A DNA stretch of 34,414 bases, taken from the NCBI GenBank assembly GCA_015056055.1, contig SVHC01000031.1, positions 1 to 34,414 of the forward strand. Reading direction: 5' to 3'. This stretch comes from Clostridiales bacterium. Lineage in GTDB: Bacteria; Bacillota; Clostridia; Christensenellales; Aristaeellaceae. Made by a program: the position numbers and the translations under genes. Under the pieces are notes generated by a model. That model saw only the letters and a list, made by a program, of their open reading frames with translations, ran no database searches and had not been told where the DNA came from. This document shows positions 2 through 34,260 of the stretch, piece after piece. Position 1 is the stretch's first letter, and every line of letters starts with the position of its first letter.

Positions 2-1468
2 CAGCATCAGCATACCTTCATGCTGACCGGCGCTACGGAGAAGAGCTCTGAAACCTTTGCGCATACCGGCTTTACCATCGCACCGCCGCCGCTGCGCGTC
101 TATCTGCGCGACTATGAGCCCTTCAGCGGCTTCATGAATGTGGATTCCGCGGCGAAGATTTCGGGCATTGTATCTGCAAACTACGATATCACCTCTCTTG
201 CGGTTCAGTTCTTCCCCAGTGAAGACGGCAGCACCGTGGAATACAAGGTTATGCCCGGTGTGAAGAGCTTTGATCTGTCGGAACTGAATATCCGTGTCAG
301 CGACCTGGAACTCGATGCATACGAAATGCAGATTGTGGTTCAGGGCAATGGTGAGACGAAGATCGTCGGTCAGCGCAGCTTCTCGCTGACCACTGAAGCT
401 GTCCCTGACGGGTTTACAGTGGATTATGATCTGCTGTCCGCATTCATCGGCAATGCTGCAAACAGAGAACTGTTCAATGCGTATCAGGTGGATTACACGA
501 TGCGCATCGAAGAAAACATGACCGAAACAGAGCGGTTCAATCTGGTCATGTCCCAGCGCAAGGATTACAACAATGCTGCCATGCGCGATACGCTGGAGGA
601 AATTCTCGCCGGTGTGGATGACAAGGATACCTATCTCATCGAACTCTATAAGAAGGAAATCGCCGATTTCATTGTGGATATGGGCGAAGAGGCAGAGACC
701 TATCAGTATGACAATGCCATGGTACAAGCCATTGCAGCCTGCCTTGCGCAGACAAAGAAGATAGACATCGATTTCATCGGTAAGGAGTACGGCGCCATTG
801 CTGAATATGACACTCTGATGCTCAAGGGTATGGGCATTGCGATCGAAAAGGTCAAGGATACTACGGACTTTGCTGAAAATATCGGCAAACTGTCTGCGAT
901 TGTGGAAGATTTCTATAAGGATTATTCCCGCGGCATGGAGATCATGGAGTACCTTGAGACGCAGTATGTGGGCAATGCGCAGTATCAGTATGCGCTGGAA
1001 GAACTGAAGTGCGAATACTACAACAACAGTTATCGTGTGTTCAACAACCTGTTCACTTACGCTTACCAAAAGGCTGTCGAAGATTTGAACGATGCGGTGG
1101 CGGAGATCGCATTGAATGCTCTCAGCGGCGGATTGTTCAAGGTATATAAGATCGCAGGCTTTGCTGAGGAGGTTCTTGATAAGGTCTACGATATCTATGG
1201 CGATTCCAACGATTATGTTACCTACGCTATCCAGTGTGAAACCTATCAGAATGCACGCGCAGCTTACCGCGATATTTTTGATCTGGTCGCACAGGATACT
1301 TCAAACGTGGCGAACATCGCAAAGCTCCAGCGCTCCTTCGAAATCACCCGCCTGTCGGCTATCCGCGCATTGGAAACGTTGATGGATATGAAGTCATATT
1401 CCTGCATCGACTATACTTATCCCATGATGCATCTCAGGGAATTGAAAAAGCTGATGCCTGGATTCTGA
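2..1468 (+). CDS. 3' part of an unrecognised, probably exported protein (5' end outside window)
   Basis: The frame is open from base 2 to the TGA at 1466-1468, so the first ATG (base 20) is probably not the start and the N terminus lies outside the window. About 488 codons are visible. The first ~130 residues look like a beta-sandwich of the Ig/Fn3 type: alternating hydrophobic strands, with a segment resembling the I-S-G-I-V-S-A pattern seen in adhesive or stalk domains of secreted proteins. The remaining ~350 residues are acidic and look mostly helical, with many Tyr, Glu and Asp and no clear membrane segment. I recognise no catalytic motif and do not assign a function. The Ig-like start and acidic composition suggest an extracellular protein, but the signal peptide that would show this is missing. 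A perfect 16-bp hairpin follows the stop. Confidence 0.75.
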   Translation, partial: QHQHTFMLTGATEKSSETFAHTGFTIAPPPLRVYLRDYEPFSGFMNVDSAAKISGIVSANYDITSLAVQFFPSEDGSTVEYKVMPGVKSFDLSELNIRVSDLELDAYEMQIVVQGNGETKIVGQRSFSLTTEAVPDGFTVDYDLLSAFIGNAANRELFNAYQVDYTMRIEENMTETERFNLVMSQRKDYNNAAMRDTLEEILAGVDDKDTYLIELYKKEIADFIVDMGEEAETYQYDNAMVQAIAACLAQTKKIDIDFIGKEYGAIAEYDTLMLKGMGIAIEKVKDTTDFAENIGKLSAIVEDFYKDYSRGMEIMEYLETQYVGNAQYQYALEELKCEYYNNSYRVFNNLFTYAYQKAVEDLNDAVAEIALNALSGGLFKVYKIAGFAEEVLDKVYDIYGDSNDYVTYAIQCETYQNARAAYRDIFDLVAQDTSNVANIAKLQRSFEITRLSAIRALETLMDMKSYSCIDYTYPMMHLRELKKLMPGF

Positions 1469-29136: not shown

Positions 29137-29495
29137 ATAGCAATCCCCCAGTTGCGGCTCAGGCATACGGTGTAGACCGGTTTGCCGTGCAGTTTTGCCG
29201 GAAGATCAACGCCGTGCCGCGTGGCGACGATCAGGCAGGAAACGGAAGCAGAATCCAGATAGCGGCCGATTTGCTTCATGATGGTTGCGCGGGCTGCACG
29301 CTTTTTAACCTCTATACCGATGGTGCCTGCCAGAAAATCAATCCGCGCGCCCTTTTCCAGATGAGCTTCGTGCGTGAAGGGAATCCCTGCCTTTTCAAGC
29401 GCCTGTGCAACCAGGTGATGCAGGTCATATTCTTCGCACGTGGGAGAGGGGCGCACGGTTTTCAGTGCTGCAAGAATGCGGGTTACTTCGCCCAT
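29133..29495 (-). CDS. Small PD-(D/E)XK-type nuclease-like protein
   Basis: 120 residues. The order of acidic and basic residues fits a PD-(D/E)XK nuclease core: E22 in the first helix (E-E-Y-D-L-H-H-L-V), D53 (G-A-R-I-D-F-L), E62-x-K64 (I-G-I-E-V-K-K) and Q75 in the following helix (I-M-K-Q-I-G-R-Y-L). The rest looks like strands and helices of that fold (S-C-L-I-V-A-T). I infer metal-dependent DNA cleavage; the family cannot be named securely (VRR-NUC-like is possible). The ATG at 29495 lies 13 bases inside the upstream nucleotidyltransferase gene, with no strong ribosome site, so translation is probably coupled. It overlaps the SNF2 helicase start (ATGA), suggesting a helicase-nuclease pair. 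Confidence 0.75.
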   Translation of the reverse strand: MGEVTRILAALKTVRPSPTCEEYDLHHLVAQALEKAGIPFTHEAHLEKGARIDFLAGTIGIEVKKRAARATIMKQIGRYLDSASVSCLIVATRHGVDLPAKLHGKPVYTVCLSRNWGIAI

Positions 29496-30217
29496 CGCTC
29501 ACACACGTCGTGATAGGCTTCCACGGTGCCGATGTCCACGCATTCGCCGTCGAAGGTGTAAACGCGTACATCCTTCTTCTGATAGAGCCATTCCGGGAAA
29601 TGACCGGGCGCATCGGGATTGTTGCCCTCCTCCAGATACTGCGCGATCATGGGCACAGTATCGCGGCGGTAGCAATAGATGGCGTAAATACCGATGTCGC
29701 TCTGGGGCTCTGCGGGCTTTTCCACAAGGGAAGTTACCTGACCGTTCGGTGCAAGGGTTGCTACGGCAAAGCGGCGCAGGTCATTGATGTTGTCGATCTT
29801 TTTGCCGAGCAGGCAGTCGCAGCCGTGGCGGTGGAAATCATCGGTGAGCTCTTTGAGCGGGAAGGTAAAAAGATTGTCGCTTGCCGCGATCAAAAGATCA
29901 TCGTCGATGCAGGTGTTCTTCAGAACGAAGTTCACGTCGCCGATTGCGCCGAGGCGGTTGTCGTTGTCGGTGGTGCCGTCATCCCATACGGTGACGGGGA
30001 TTTTGCGTTCTTCGGAAGCATTCCACTCTTCAAACACTTTTGCAAAGCGGTGGTTGGTAACAAGATGGATCTCGTCAATTTCGGCGATGGTGTGCATCTC
30101 GTCAATCAGGCGGTCCAGAATTGTTCTTCCTGCGATGGGAAGAAGTGCCTTGGGTTTGTCTATCGTCAAAGGATACAGGCGGGTGGCGTATCCGGCAGCA
30201 AGAATAATTGCTTTCAT
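29483..30217 (-). CDS. NDP-sugar pyrophosphorylase-type nucleotidyltransferase
   Basis: 244 residues of the NTP_transferase fold. The nucleotide loop is M-K-A-I-I-L-A-A-G-Y-A-T-R-L-Y-P-L-T with the downstream D-K-P-K-A-L-L-P-I-A-G (residues 1-31), the pattern of RmlA/GalU/GlmU-type enzymes that make NDP-sugars from NTP and sugar-1-phosphate. Here A-A-G-Y-A replaces the usual A-G-G-x-G. Later S-D-N (residues 113-115, metal-binding Asp), L-V-E-K-P and F-D-G-E-C-V-D-I-G-T fit the family. The sugar and base are unknown, and no hexapeptide-repeat domain is present. The ATG at 30217 has AAAGGA about 11 bases upstream. It leads an operon with the nuclease and SNF2 helicase, an unexpected pairing. 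Confidence 0.9.
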   Translation of the reverse strand: MKAIILAAGYATRLYPLTIDKPKALLPIAGRTILDRLIDEMHTIAEIDEIHLVTNHRFAKVFEEWNASEERKIPVTVWDDGTTDNDNRLGAIGDVNFVLKNTCIDDDLLIAASDNLFTFPLKELTDDFHRHGCDCLLGKKIDNINDLRRFAVATLAPNGQVTSLVEKPAEPQSDIGIYAIYCYRRDTVPMIAQYLEEGNNPDAPGHFPEWLYQKKDVRVYTFDGECVDIGTVEAYHDVCERWAK

Positions 30218-30310: not shown

Positions 30311-30339
30311 TTGTGTTTTATGGGAAGAAGAAGTATACT
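30311..30339 (+). promoter_or_regulatory. Promoter of ABC exporter operon with regulated leader
   Basis: TTGTGT (30311-30316), 17 bp, TATACT (30334-30339). It predicts a leader of about 205 bases before the first exporter gene, containing a short ORF and a terminator. Confidence 0.7.
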
Positions 30340-30372
30340 AAGGAAAATATTAAATGAAAGGAGGCGGGCTCG

Positions 30373-30450
30373 GTGATCTGGAATCTTGCAAAGAATCATG
30401 TATCTGCAAATGGAGCTGTGTGCCCGTCTGCCGTTTTGCCTGTGCTGTAA
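30373..30450 (+). CDS. Putative 25-residue leader peptide of ABC exporter operon
   Basis: A GTG start (30373) sits 8 bases after a strong AAAGGAGG (30357-30364), and the frame runs to TAA at 30448-30450. The peptide begins M-I-W-N-L-A-K-N-H and ends A-V-L-P-V-L. Its codons 17-20 (30421-30432) contain TGCCCG and GCC, which can pair with the 5' arm of the downstream terminator. By analogy to the bmrB leader of the B. subtilis bmrCD exporter, slowed ribosomes in this ORF could change folding of the leader and let transcription continue. The ribosome site and the position between promoter and terminator are seen directly; the regulatory role is inferred. Confidence 0.65.
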   Translation: MIWNLAKNHVSANGAVCPSAVLPVL

Positions 30451-30505
30451 GGATTTGCATGGGGAATTTTGGCCATCGGGCATATATATGTCTGATGGCC
30501 TTTTT
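30421..30505 (+). promoter_or_regulatory. Leader terminator with competing anti-terminator (transcription attenuator)
   Basis: Terminator: 30471-30480 and flank pair with 30489-30500 (ggccatc/gatggcc plus inner pairs), followed by TTTTTATAT from 30501. Competing pairing: TGCCCG (30421-30426) is the exact complement of CGGGCA (30477-30482), and GCC (30430-30432) can pair with GGC (30471-30473), which would block the terminator. A ribosome finishing the leader ORF (stop at 30448) would cover the first strand; a ribosome stalled early would not. Confidence 0.6.
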
Positions 30506-30550
30506 ATATCTGTAAATCGAAAAAAGGATAAAATTCCGGAGGTGGTTTTT

Positions 30551-32404
30551 GTGAACCTGAGAAGATGGAAGCTGATCGGTGCATTTATGCGCGGAAACAG
30601 TATGCGCTATCTGGGCGCAGTCTGCGCAGTCGTCCTTACGGTAACGATCGGCTTCGTAACGCCGCGTGTTTTGGGCGGCACGGTGGATGCCATTCTGGAC
30701 AAAGTTCGGGGGCAGGACAATCCGCTTACATTCTTTGGCGTGATGAATGATTTCCTTTATGCCAGAGGCGGGCGGGACTATCTTCTGAGCAGGCTGTGGC
30801 TGCCTGCAATAGCCCTGATTGCGCTGAATCTTTTCAATGGCGTCTGCCAGTATATGCGAGGCCGCTGGACGGCGGAAGCAAGCGAATCCATCGCCAAGAA
30901 TATGCGCGATCGGCTGTACAAGCATCTGCAGGTGCTGCCGTATGACTATCACGTCAAGGCGCAGACGGGTGATTTGATTCAGAGGTGTACGTCGGACGTT
31001 GAAACCATTCGACGCTTCCTTGCCAGCCAGGTGGTGGAAATTTTCCGCGCCATTCTGATGATTATTGTGGCGCTGACGATCATGCTCGGCATTCATGTGA
31101 AAATGACGCTGTATTCCATGATGCTGGTGCCGCCGCTTTTTCTGTTCGCCATGTTTTTCTTCAAATGGGTGCGCAAGGCATTCACGCTTTCGGATGAAGC
31201 GGAAGGCAGAATGAGCGCCGTGCTTCAGGAAAATCTGACGGGCGTGCGCGTTGTGCGCGCATTCGGCAGGCAGAAGTTTGAGGTGGATAAGTTCAACGAG
31301 GCGAACGATGATCTCCTGAAAAAATCCCGCAAACTGTGCGATCTTCTGGCAGTGTACTGGTCGGGCTCGGACCTTATGAGCATGACGCAGACGGGCATCA
31401 CGCTCGTGATGGGTGTGTTTATCGTGGCGGCAGGTCACGGCGAGCTCACGGTCGGCGAGATGACGGTGTTCACAAGCTACATATCCATGCTCCTGTGGCC
31501 GATTCGCCAGCTGGGCAGAATCCTTTCGGATATGGGTAAGGCGCTGGTATCCTTTAACCGCATTGACGAGATTCTGGCTCAGAAGCCCGAAGAGGACAGC
31601 CCCGAGGCCGTATGCCCCCCGATTGACCGTGAAATTGCGTTCAAAAACGTGCATTTTGCCTATGAAGAGGCCAACCCTGTGCTCCGCGGCGTGAATTTCA
31701 CGGTGCAGCCGGGGCAGACGGTGGCCATTCTGGGCGCAACCGGCAGCGGCAAATCCACGCTGATGCATCTTCTGCAGCGTTTGTACGATGTGCAGGATGG
31801 TGAAATTACCATCGGCGGCGTGGATATCCGGAAGATTCAGAAGAACCATCTGCGTTCGCGCGTAGGTCTGATTCTACAGGAACCGTTCCTGTATTCCCGA
31901 ACCGTAAAGGACAATATCGCCATTTCTGCCACGGATGCGGCGGATGAGGACATTTATGCGGCAGCACGCACGGCCTGTGCAGACGGGTTTATCCGCGATT
32001 TTGAAAACGGATACGCCACCATGGTGGGCGAGCGCGGCGTGACGCTCTCCGGCGGTCAGAAGCAGCGCGTTGCCATCGCAAGAACGCTTCTGCGCGAAAA
32101 CGATATTCTGATTTTTGATGATTCCCTTTCGGCAGTGGATACGCAGACCGATAAGGCTATCCGCGAAGCGCTGCATCAGCAGAAGGCCGAGGGCAAAAAG
32201 GGTGCCACCACGTTCATTATTTCGCATCGTCTGACCACGCTTTCCGAGGCGGATTTTATCGTGGTGCTCGACGGCGGCGAAATCGTGCAGCAGGGCACGC
32301 ATACGGAGCTGATTCATGAAGAGGGTTTGTATCGCAGAATTTATCAGATTCAGTCTGCTCTGGAAGAAGAGTTGGGACGCGATACAGAAGACGAAGAAGC
32401 GTAA
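30551..32404 (+). CDS. Heterodimeric ABC exporter subunit 1 (degenerate catalytic NBD; BmrC-like)
   Basis: 618 residues. Residues about 15-340 hold six transmembrane helices; residues about 365-600 form the nucleotide-binding domain. Walker A is G-A-T-G-S-G-K-S-T (about 395-403), Q-loop L-Q-E-P, signature L-S-G-G-Q-K-Q-R (about 498), Walker B I-L-I-F-D-D-S-L-S-A-V-D (about 519-530) and the H-loop I-S-H-R. The second acidic residue after Walker B is Asp, not the catalytic Glu, marking the degenerate site of heterodimeric exporters such as TM287/288 and BmrCD. The GTG at 30551 follows GGAGGTGG (30538-30545); an in-frame extension to 30386 runs through the leader terminator and is rejected. The partner starts 18 bases after its stop. 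It probably exports drugs or lipids. Confidence 0.94.
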   Translation: MNLRRWKLIGAFMRGNSMRYLGAVCAVVLTVTIGFVTPRVLGGTVDAILDKVRGQDNPLTFFGVMNDFLYARGGRDYLLSRLWLPAIALIALNLFNGVCQYMRGRWTAEASESIAKNMRDRLYKHLQVLPYDYHVKAQTGDLIQRCTSDVETIRRFLASQVVEIFRAILMIIVALTIMLGIHVKMTLYSMMLVPPLFLFAMFFFKWVRKAFTLSDEAEGRMSAVLQENLTGVRVVRAFGRQKFEVDKFNEANDDLLKKSRKLCDLLAVYWSGSDLMSMTQTGITLVMGVFIVAAGHGELTVGEMTVFTSYISMLLWPIRQLGRILSDMGKALVSFNRIDEILAQKPEEDSPEAVCPPIDREIAFKNVHFAYEEANPVLRGVNFTVQPGQTVAILGATGSGKSTLMHLLQRLYDVQDGEITIGGVDIRKIQKNHLRSRVGLILQEPFLYSRTVKDNIAISATDAADEDIYAAARTACADGFIRDFENGYATMVGERGVTLSGGQKQRVAIARTLLRENDILIFDDSLSAVDTQTDKAIREALHQQKAEGKKGATTFIISHRLTTLSEADFIVVLDGGEIVQQGTHTELIHEEGLYRRIYQIQSALEEELGRDTEDEEA

Positions 32405-32421: not shown

Positions 32422-34260
32422 ATGCAGTTCCAGGAAGAACAGGATTATACCAAACGATTTGATGCAGGACTCTGGCTCAAGCTTTTGAAATATGCCAGGC
32501 CGTTTTATGGTCACCTCGCCGCCGTTGCGGTCACAATGCTTATATGCGCGGGCATGGATGTAGTGTTCCCGCTGCTTACAAAAGAAGCCATTGACGTATA
32601 CATTGCGCAGGGTCGCGCAAGCGAAATCGGCTGGTTTGTGCTGAAATATTTCGCCGTCGTGCTGATTCAGGTTGCAAGCATTTTCACCTTCTGCTTTTTA
32701 TCGGGCAGGGTGGAGGTGGGTATGTGCCACCGCATCCGCAAGATGGGCTTCAAAAGGCTGCAGGAGCTGCCGTTTTCGTACTACGACAGAACGCCCGTGG
32801 GCTACCTGATCGCCCGAATGACCAGCGATACGCAGCGTCTGGGCGATACAATCGGCTGGGGGCTGATCGATCTTTTCTGGGCGGCAGGCTATATCGTGAT
32901 GTCGGCGGTCGTAATGCTCCGTATGAATGTACATCTGGCGGTGATTACGCTGTGCGTCATACCGATCATTGCCGTATTTGCTATCTATTTCCAGAAGAAG
33001 ATTCTGGCCAATTACCGTCAGGTACGCAAGATCAATTCCAAGATCACCGGCGCTTTTAATGAAGGAATTATGGGCGCAAAGACGACGAAAACACTCGTTC
33101 GCGAAAAAGCGAATGCGGAGGAATTTGTAGAACTTACCGGCAATATGAAAAAGAATTCCATTCGCGCTGCCATACTTTCTGCACTGTTCTATCCTCTGGT
33201 CATGTCGTTGGGCGCGATGGCGTCATCCTATATCATCTGGAAGGGCGGCGGCGATCTGCTTGCCGGAATCGGCGGACTGTCCATCGGTACTTTGAGCGCA
33301 TTCATCACCTATGCCACCGGCATCTTTGAACCCATCAGTAACGTTGCGCGTATTTTTGCGGATCTGCAGTCCTCGCAGGCGGCTGCCGAGCGCGTGATAA
33401 CGATGATGGAAACCGAACCTGAAATTGCCGATACGCCCGAAGTAGAAGCGCAGTTTGGCGACAATTTCAATCCCAAACGCGAAAACTGGCCGGAAATGCA
33501 CGGTGATGTCACGTTTGAAAACGTGAGCTTCCGGTACAAAGAGGGCGAACAGGTTCTGAAGAATTTCAGCCTGAACGTCAAAGCAGGTGAGACCATTGCA
33601 CTTGTCGGTGAAACGGGCAGCGGAAAATCCACCATCGTAAATCTGGTGTGCCGCTTCTACGAGCCTACCGAAGGAAGGATTCTGATTGACGGCGTGGATT
33701 ACCGCGAACGCAGCCAGCTTTGGCTTCAGTCGAATCTGGGCTATGTATTGCAGCAGCCGCATCTGTTCTCGGGCACAATCCGGGACAATATTCGTTATGG
33801 AAATCTGACTGCAACCGATGAACAGATCGAAGAAGCAGCGCGCAGGGTCAATGCGGAAGAGTTTATTCTGGGCTTTGACAAGGGCTATGATACGGATGTG
33901 GGCGAGGGCGGTAATCGCCTTTCCACCGGTCAGAAACAGCTGATTTCCTTTGCACGCGCGCTGATTGCCGACCCTGCGATCTTTGTGCTGGATGAGGCGA
34001 CCAGCTCCGTTGATACCGAAACCGAGATGAAAATCCAGCAGGCAATTCAGCAAACGCTCTCCGGGCGCACGAGCTTTATCATCGCGCACCGTCTGAGTAC
34101 TGTCCGCACGGCGGACCGCATTCTGGTGATTCAGGGCGGCGAGGTCATCGAGGAAGGCAGCCATAAGGAGCTTCTGCGTCAAAAAGGATACTATTACAAC
34201 CTGTACGCCAATCAGTTCAAGGAAGAACTGGAGCAGGCTGTGCTGGGCATAAGAAAGTAA
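32422..34260 (+). CDS. Heterodimeric ABC exporter subunit 2 (catalytic NBD; BmrD-like)
   Basis: 612 residues with an N-terminal six-helix transmembrane domain (about 25-325) and a nucleotide-binding domain from about 360. Walker A is G-E-T-G-S-G-K-S-T (about 395-403), Q-loop L-Q-Q-P, and Walker B I-F-V-L-D-E-A-T-S-S-V-D with the catalytic Glu (about 524), H-loop I-A-H-R. Its signature is L-S-T-G-Q-K-Q rather than L-S-G-G-Q. In the dimer this weak signature would face the degenerate Walker B of subunit 1, while the intact Walker B here meets the perfect L-S-G-G-Q of subunit 1: one active and one inactive ATP site, as in asymmetric multidrug exporters. The ATG at 32422 has GAGAGGTG upstream. 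It ends the operon. Confidence 0.94.
   Translation: MQFQEEQDYTKRFDAGLWLKLLKYARPFYGHLAAVAVTMLICAGMDVVFPLLTKEAIDVYIAQGRASEIGWFVLKYFAVVLIQVASIFTFCFLSGRVEVGMCHRIRKMGFKRLQELPFSYYDRTPVGYLIARMTSDTQRLGDTIGWGLIDLFWAAGYIVMSAVVMLRMNVHLAVITLCVIPIIAVFAIYFQKKILANYRQVRKINSKITGAFNEGIMGAKTTKTLVREKANAEEFVELTGNMKKNSIRAAILSALFYPLVMSLGAMASSYIIWKGGGDLLAGIGGLSIGTLSAFITYATGIFEPISNVARIFADLQSSQAAAERVITMMETEPEIADTPEVEAQFGDNFNPKRENWPEMHGDVTFENVSFRYKEGEQVLKNFSLNVKAGETIALVGETGSGKSTIVNLVCRFYEPTEGRILIDGVDYRERSQLWLQSNLGYVLQQPHLFSGTIRDNIRYGNLTATDEQIEEAARRVNAEEFILGFDKGYDTDVGEGGNRLSTGQKQLISFARALIADPAIFVLDEATSSVDTETEMKIQQAIQQTLSGRTSFIIAHRLSTVRTADRILVIQGGEVIEEGSHKELLRQKGYYYNLYANQFKEELEQAVLGIRK

Follow-up and report, generated by a model that had tools for sequence, protein, structure and literature searches.

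How is transcription of a two-subunit ABC exporter decided when a small upstream open reading frame (uORF) and an intrinsic terminator stand between the promoter and the first exporter gene? This question is raised by a locus of a Clostridiales bacterium (Aristaeellaceae; GCA_015056055.1, SVHC01000031.1, positions 1-34,414, forward strand). The window is this whole stretch of 34,414 nt. A sequence-only reading had proposed that the leader ORF controls the exporter by transcription attenuation. The comparison of relatives described below supported a leader-ORF transcription attenuator upstream of a heterodimeric exporter.

The leader and the exporter operon in the window

The features of the locus are given in Table 1. 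The ribosome site, the 25-codon ORF, the terminator with its U tract and the exporter GTG (at 30551, the start of subunit A), all noted earlier, were located in the sequence. The leader ORF is translatable, has a ribosome-binding site and lies between the promoter and the terminator, and the terminator lies upstream of the structural gene, the exporter. The terminator hairpin (30471-30500) has 13 counted pairs and a 4-nt loop, is followed by TTTTT, and starts 20 nt past the uORF stop codon. The promoter had been called good. This wording was too generous for the window, where the -35 box matches only 3/6 consensus bases and the consensus scan did not list the promoter. At the promoter position of relatives, at least 10/12 consensus bases were present in 70/84 leaders (1.2% of shuffles). 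A nucleotidyltransferase-like gene (29483-30217, minus strand) is divergent from the exporter and shares the intergenic region with it. The best 25 of its 33 NCBIfam matches were all below the cut-offs.

Table 1. Features of the putative attenuator leader and the exporter operon (window positions)
Feature	Position	Strand	Remark
Sigma-70-type promoter TTGTGT-N17-TATACT	30311..30339	+	weak -35; 8/12 consensus bases; TTGTGT 30311-30316, TATACT 30334-30339, spacer 17 nt
Segment 1	30357..30374	+	uORF ribosome-binding site AAAGGAGG and the following bases as far as the start codon; partner is segment 2
Leader uORF	30373..30450	+	GTG start, 25 codons and TAA (30448-30450), V/M-IWNLAKNHVSANGAVCPSAVLPVL
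Segment 2	30415..30432	+	inside uORF; partner is segment 1 or segment 3
Segment 3	30471..30485	+	terminator 5' arm; segment 2 can pair with it instead of with segment 1
Intrinsic terminator with U tract	30471..30505	+	arms covary across relatives
Ribosome-binding site, exporter subunit A	30538..30542	+	
ABC exporter subunit A	30551..32404	+	617 aa; GATGSGKS, LSGGQ, degenerate Walker B FDDSLSAVD
ABC exporter subunit B	32422..34260	+	612 aa; GETGSGKS, LSTGQ signature, LDEATSSVD, canonical catalytic Glu

One degenerate and one canonical Walker B motif form the pattern of heterodimeric exporters, and by its motifs the exporter appears to be heterodimeric, as expected. The best solved relatives by sequence were ABCB1-type proteins; bacterial exporters, TM_0288 and YheI/YheH among them, came next. 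Within the 60 chains listed per subunit, A matched YheI and B matched YheH; ABCB1-type chains and TM_0288 scored higher, as did chain A of 6raf in the case of B. We take YheI/YheH to be BmrC/BmrD, with BmrC as the degenerate subunit. None of the best 25 NCBIfam families per subunit reached its cut-off.

The segment TGCCCG (30421-30426) had been described as an exact complement of CGGGCA (30477-30482), and it is. In the fold of a transcript ending at the terminator loop, this anti-terminator (2:3) extends to nine pairs (30418-30426 with 30477-30485) and the uORF ribosome site is unpaired. The anti-terminator, which uses sequence inside the uORF, and the terminator (3:4) are mutually exclusive in the window. 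The fold of the leader 30345-30510 contained the terminator and a helix joining the ribosome-site region to the end part of the uORF. In this second helix (1:2), the uORF ribosome site at 30360-30369 pairs with uORF bases 30422-30432. It hides the ribosome site of the uORF and was absent from the sequence-only reading. With this additional helix the leader becomes a three-way switch of an anti-anti-terminator (1:2), an anti-terminator (2:3) and a terminator (3:4). Against shuffles, the window duplexes reached z -2.4 (2:3) and z -2.3 (1:2), and the folding of 30345-30510 reached z -2.6. These pairings beat shuffles only modestly, so the case rests on relatives. A detector for a ribosome site, a uORF, a helix hiding that site and a terminator matched 2 of 200 overlapping tiles covering both strands of the window, and both were this leader. 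For the window and 15 related loci, Rfam covariance models gave 0 matches at the gathering score and, at a lax threshold, a single chance-level match (E 0.88).

Conservation of the layout, the pairing and the uORF

Matches to exporter A with E up to 1e-150 were present in 171/251 genomes of the window's family. Set A comprised the upstream regions of the family's 109 closest loci, bar one (L018); these are L002-L016, L020 and L032-L124, with exporter-A matches of E up to about 1e-176. L018 and two loci from other families of the order (L017, L019) fall within the same E range and were placed, with 23 more distant loci, in comparison set B (26 in all). L015 and L116 were of insufficient length for the test, which left 107 testable orthologues in set A. 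The detector required a ribosome site, a terminator, a uORF 12-60 codons long and, for 1:2, a duplex of -14 kcal/mol or lower. The layout was detected in 84/107 testable orthologues vs 5/321 Markov-resampled controls, and in 1/94 coding-region windows; the other 23/107 orthologues were without a detected leader. The strict detector matched 76/109 loci of set A, and after L044 and L088 had been dropped by hand as spurious, 74 leaders were kept.

The leader reached beyond set A. Among homologues from named genome records (80 loci, 79 of them long enough, six of the 80 repeating set-A genomes), a leader was found in 24/79 vs 0/237 controls. Five of these 24 repeat set-A genomes, which leaves 19 further leaders. 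Leaders outside set A include those of Christensenella sp. UBA3857 (L152) and Fervidicella metallireducens AeB (L153). In comparison set B a leader was found in 6/26 loci, one of which (L027) looks spurious.

Model R1 gave one strong match in genome G000, which was this leader (E 2e-12); the next stood at 0.001, with 150/764 candidates scored. Matches at E 0.01 or better were present in 21 of 41 family genomes. Of the best 14 matches in these genomes, 13 lay directly upstream of exporter A, and the remaining one (L243) was rejected as an ordinary terminator. The same leader upstream of other genes was also considered and rejected: of the weaker loci, 16 were read, and most of these resemble either a terminator or an ordinary ribosome site. 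One weak match (L246, G034:C45:14519-14665, minus strand, E 7e-4) has a ribosome site, an 11-codon ORF and a terminator before a lipoprotein-like gene, and is perhaps a chance look-alike.

Other arrangements were seen upstream of related exporters. In Catenibacillus scindens DSM 106146 (L172), a 37-codon uORF with a very strong 1:2 duplex (-26.3) has its terminator 118 nt past the stop codon; this locus was found by the strict detector and missed by the looser one. More distant exporter lineages, 44-48% identical (L132, L136 and L211; L021 and L134), have their own uORF, helix hiding the ribosome site and terminator, and inside each group the peptides resemble one another (MYNKNFAFG-like, MFGF-like). 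Another leader, with no obvious uORF and common to two genera, precedes a different exporter lineage that is 45-46% identical (L023, about 1340-1460, plus strand; L026, about 1288-1400, reverse). It consists of GGAGGGTCGAA followed by a hairpin GGATAAGAT..CAGG / CCTGAT..CTTGTCC with a U tract. The element GGAGGGTCGAA was found only in L023 and L026 among the loci compared, and this leader had no Rfam match.

Pairing was examined in the 74 leaders by a species swap, in which each segment 1 was paired with all segments 2, and each segment 2 with all terminator 5' arms. The 1:2 duplex was 4.3 kcal/mol better with its own than with swapped partners (-19.7 vs -15.4 kcal/mol, z -14.3). The 2:3 duplex was 3.5 kcal/mol better (-16.7 vs -13.2 kcal/mol, z -10.2). 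With GC- and length-matched swaps, the own partner was better in 51/60 cases for 1:2 (p about 1e-9) and in 52/67 cases for 2:3 (p about 8e-9). Against dinucleotide shuffles, 1:2 was significant (p<0.05) in 50/74 and 2:3 in 28/74 leaders. In the 19 further leaders, 1:2 reached z -8.5 and 2:3 reached z -3.0, and several leaders outside the family lacked a convincing 2:3 (e.g. L193, -3.4).

Column covariation was counted in alignment A2, which holds 24 leaders hand-chosen for length from 36 hand-picked ones. For 1:2 plus 3:4, 79.5% of cells were paired vs 72.5% in shuffled alignments, and 52 vs 23 cells were changed on both sides. Double-sided covariation of 2:3 in fixed columns of A2 was not significant (3 pairs vs 4.1 in shuffles); we suppose that this is because its register shifts. 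Identity between segments 1 and 3 was rejected as a signature, since the shared word measured 4.42 nt within a leader vs 4.17 nt between leaders. Judged by these comparisons, 1:2 and the terminator have firm support as predicted helices; the predicted 2:3 has firm support within the family and less beyond it. Conservation in related genomes, on which the sequence-only reading had made its proposal depend, was borne out: the ORF is kept (84/107 loci) and the anti-terminator is species-matched (2:3 z -10.2).

The peptide fared differently. A search for conserved M-I-W-N-L-A-K leader ORFs before homologous exporters had been suggested, and it fails because the ORF is kept and the peptide is not. 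In the 74 leaders the uORFs have 16-57 codons (median 25), and the median pairwise peptide identity is 0.18. Substitutions outside segment 2 numbered 90/93/103 at codon positions 1/2/3 in 26 non-overlapping pairs of 0.60-0.97 nucleotide identity, of which the low end aligns poorly. In the 11 pairs at 0.70 or more identity they numbered 46/42/40. The leader peptides thus look unconstrained, with no sign of amino-acid selection in these counts. The stop codon of the uORF ends 0-25 nt past segment 2 in 61/74 own frames vs 10/148 other frames, a comparison that somewhat favours the own frame, as the detector demanded a stop before the terminator. The ORF seems to be kept for where its start and stop lie.

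Ribosome position and the predicted choice between the helices

The masking model hid the ribosome footprint on a transcript ending in the terminator loop, and 2:3 was scored as formed at 5 or more pairs. When the P site was placed at codons 1, 2, 3, 4 and 5, 2:3 formed in 59, 61, 59, 52 and 40 of the 74 leaders, respectively. It formed in 28/74 at codon 6, in 10/74 at codon 15, and in 4/74 when the A site held the stop codon. In the absence of a ribosome, the median leader formed 11.6 pairs of 1:2 and 1.8 pairs of 2:3. These results point to a leader that is off when untranslated, off when fully translated, and on when a ribosome is halted at the start. On at codon 3 together with off at termination was found in 55/74 leaders; the complete off/on/off pattern at equilibrium was found in 35/74 only.

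Without a ribosome, 2:3 already had at least 5 pairs in 24/74 leaders, the window's included. In these leaders the off state would need an earlier formation of 1:2 during transcription, or the basal level would be leaky. The window's own model without a ribosome had 12.9 pairs of 2:3 vs 3.6 of 1:2, and the minimum free energy fold likewise. Here 2:3 also remains when the P site lies at codons 6-12, and it disappears (0.3 pairs) once the stop codon occupies the A site.

The comparison of sequences supports the ORF, the competing helices, the position of the stop and an apparent lack of peptide constraint. Together they make it probable that the leader is a ribosome-mediated transcription attenuator, induced by ribosome arrest close to the start codon, whichever peptide is encoded. 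We infer the following order of events and trigger, with drug export as the presumable purpose. By default the nascent leader would fold into 1:2 and 3:4, and transcription would end after about 160 nt, counted from a start placed by the -10 box. If a ribosome were held within roughly the first five codons, it would cover segment 1 and leave segment 2 free. Segment 2 would then pair with segment 3, the terminator would be lost and the exporter operon would be transcribed. A ribosome that reaches the stop codon would cover segment 2, so that the terminator forms again. The trigger would therefore be an arrest near the start codon whatever the peptide sequence. The simplest trigger may be antibiotics that target the ribosome and prevent initiation or formation of the first peptide bonds. 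The leader would then regulate the exporter in vivo, and antibiotics may induce it.

Four rival explanations are less probable. A classical stalling-peptide attenuator, in which particular leader amino acids and one drug together arrest the ribosome within the uORF in the manner of the erm or msrD leaders, is unlikely. It would account for the uORF present in each detected leader, for the similar peptides kept in the closest pairs and for the persistence of 2:3 in the window's model when arrest falls at codons 6-12. The lack of constraint on the peptides (90/93/103; median identity 0.18) speaks against it, however, as does the reading frame of segment 2, which by eye differs by species (..CGRL.., ..FLRP.., ..AQPP..); mid-ORF positions in most leaders, moreover, leave the anti-terminator unfreed. 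Amino-acid starvation, in which the ribosome stops at cognate codons for want of charged tRNA (trp/his type), is highly improbable. The window uORF has a Trp codon at position 3, but any Trp occurs in only 18/74 uORFs and two or more His in 9/74, codons 2-9 are mixed, and the target is an exporter rather than a biosynthetic operon. No run of cognate codons as in trp/his leaders was found in the 74 uORFs.

A sensor of translation initiation or ribosome supply, in which 1:2 gates translation of the uORF and the leader reports general translational capacity rather than drugs, is quite unlikely as well. The helix hiding the ribosome site gives the strongest signal and holds up beyond the family, where 2:3 is weak, and the untranslated leader favours 2:3 in 24/74 models; both would suit such a sensor. 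The median leader without a ribosome forms 1:2 and not 2:3 (11.6 vs 1.8 pairs), however, so that a low ribosome supply would turn the exporter off. Finally, a plain terminator that lowers basal exporter transcription, with the uORF and the complementarities present by chance, is scarcely plausible: each single pairing in the window is modest when taken by itself (z about -2.3 to -2.4), but the anatomy is kept in 84/107 orthologues vs 5/321 controls and the pairing is species-matched. The unconstrained peptides and the masking models taken together indicate that the leader most likely senses arrest close to the start whatever the peptide.

Known attenuators and the meaning of a probably peptide-independent leader

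The closest systems were compared as described in the available text of the cited papers. In Bacillus subtilis, bmrB-bmrCD has a uORF, a predicted terminator, anti-terminator and anti-anti-terminator, and a heterodimeric ABC exporter, with chloramphenicol, erythromycin and lincomycin as reported inducers (PMC4191407). The window leader is alike in its uORF, its three predicted helices and its downstream heterodimeric ABC exporter. The terminator of bmrB lies inside the uORF, whereas that of the window leader lies 20 nt past the stop codon. The likeness to bmrB-bmrCD that had been proposed therefore stands for the logic and not for the placement of the terminator. The anti-anti-terminator of the window leader holds the uORF ribosome site and gives the strongest pairing signal, whereas the role of its bmrB counterpart is left open in that text (PMC4191407).

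In vmlR of B. subtilis, a ribosome held on the uORF blocks the anti-anti-terminator and the anti-terminator forms; induction relies on arrest during translation initiation (PMC9226507). The window leader is predicted to be alike in that a held ribosome prevents the anti-anti-terminator. The vmlR uORF has three codons (MIN), acts also by translation attenuation and controls an ABCF factor (PMC9226507), whereas the uORFs here have 16-57 codons, are unconserved in sequence and precede an exporter. The cplR leaders are, like the window leader, Clostridial and uORF-based. Arrest with little context-specificity is expected for them; they have a short conserved uORF (MR[I/M]) and also hide the ribosome site of the resistance gene (PMC10201436). 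A very short conserved uORF of the vmlR/cplR type was not found in the 74 leaders. The masking models predict arrest at or next to initiation as the inducer; for vmlR and cplR, arrest at or just after initiation that depends little on context is described (PMC9226507, PMC10201436).

In Streptococcus pneumoniae, patAB resembles the window leader in its predicted three-helix attenuator (terminator, anti-terminator and anti-anti-terminator) upstream of an ABC exporter pair. The named inducers are fluoroquinolones and DNA damage, and the terms 'leader peptide' and 'open reading frame' are absent from the available text (PMC4319486). A survey of premature terminators listed 205 attenuation candidates upstream of ABC transporter genes as 'ABC-leaders', one of which precedes a multidrug export operon in lactobacilli; its available text describes no conserved uORF class for Clostridial exporters (PMC2965389). 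In the full-text literature, mostly that outside subscription journals, no account of such a leader class from these Clostridia was found. The leader probably belongs to the leader-ORF transcription attenuators, with logic and target as in bmrB and an anti-anti-terminator and predicted start-proximal arrest as in vmlR, and it matches the full definition of neither type.

A more specific reading has, in our estimate, barely better than an even chance. The leader would act as a peptide-blind position meter, whose frame is kept for its start, stop and length, free of amino-acid selection, and which allows read-through only with a ribosome at the first five or so codons. The helix hiding the ribosome site, the competing anti-terminator and the stop codon would be spaced for sensing arrest at the first codons. 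Such a meter would be tied to one exporter lineage in a family of largely uncultured Clostridia, would reach other Clostridia, and would respond alike to all start-arresting inhibitors. It would give a testable rule for the sensing of translation inhibitors: arrest at codons 1-5 turns the exporter on, and a ribosome at the stop codon turns it off. The comparison also shows that conservation of a leader ORF need not extend to its peptide, and searches that rely on conserved uORF peptides would overlook switches of this kind. The leader would also make drug or stress export the likely function of this exporter lineage.
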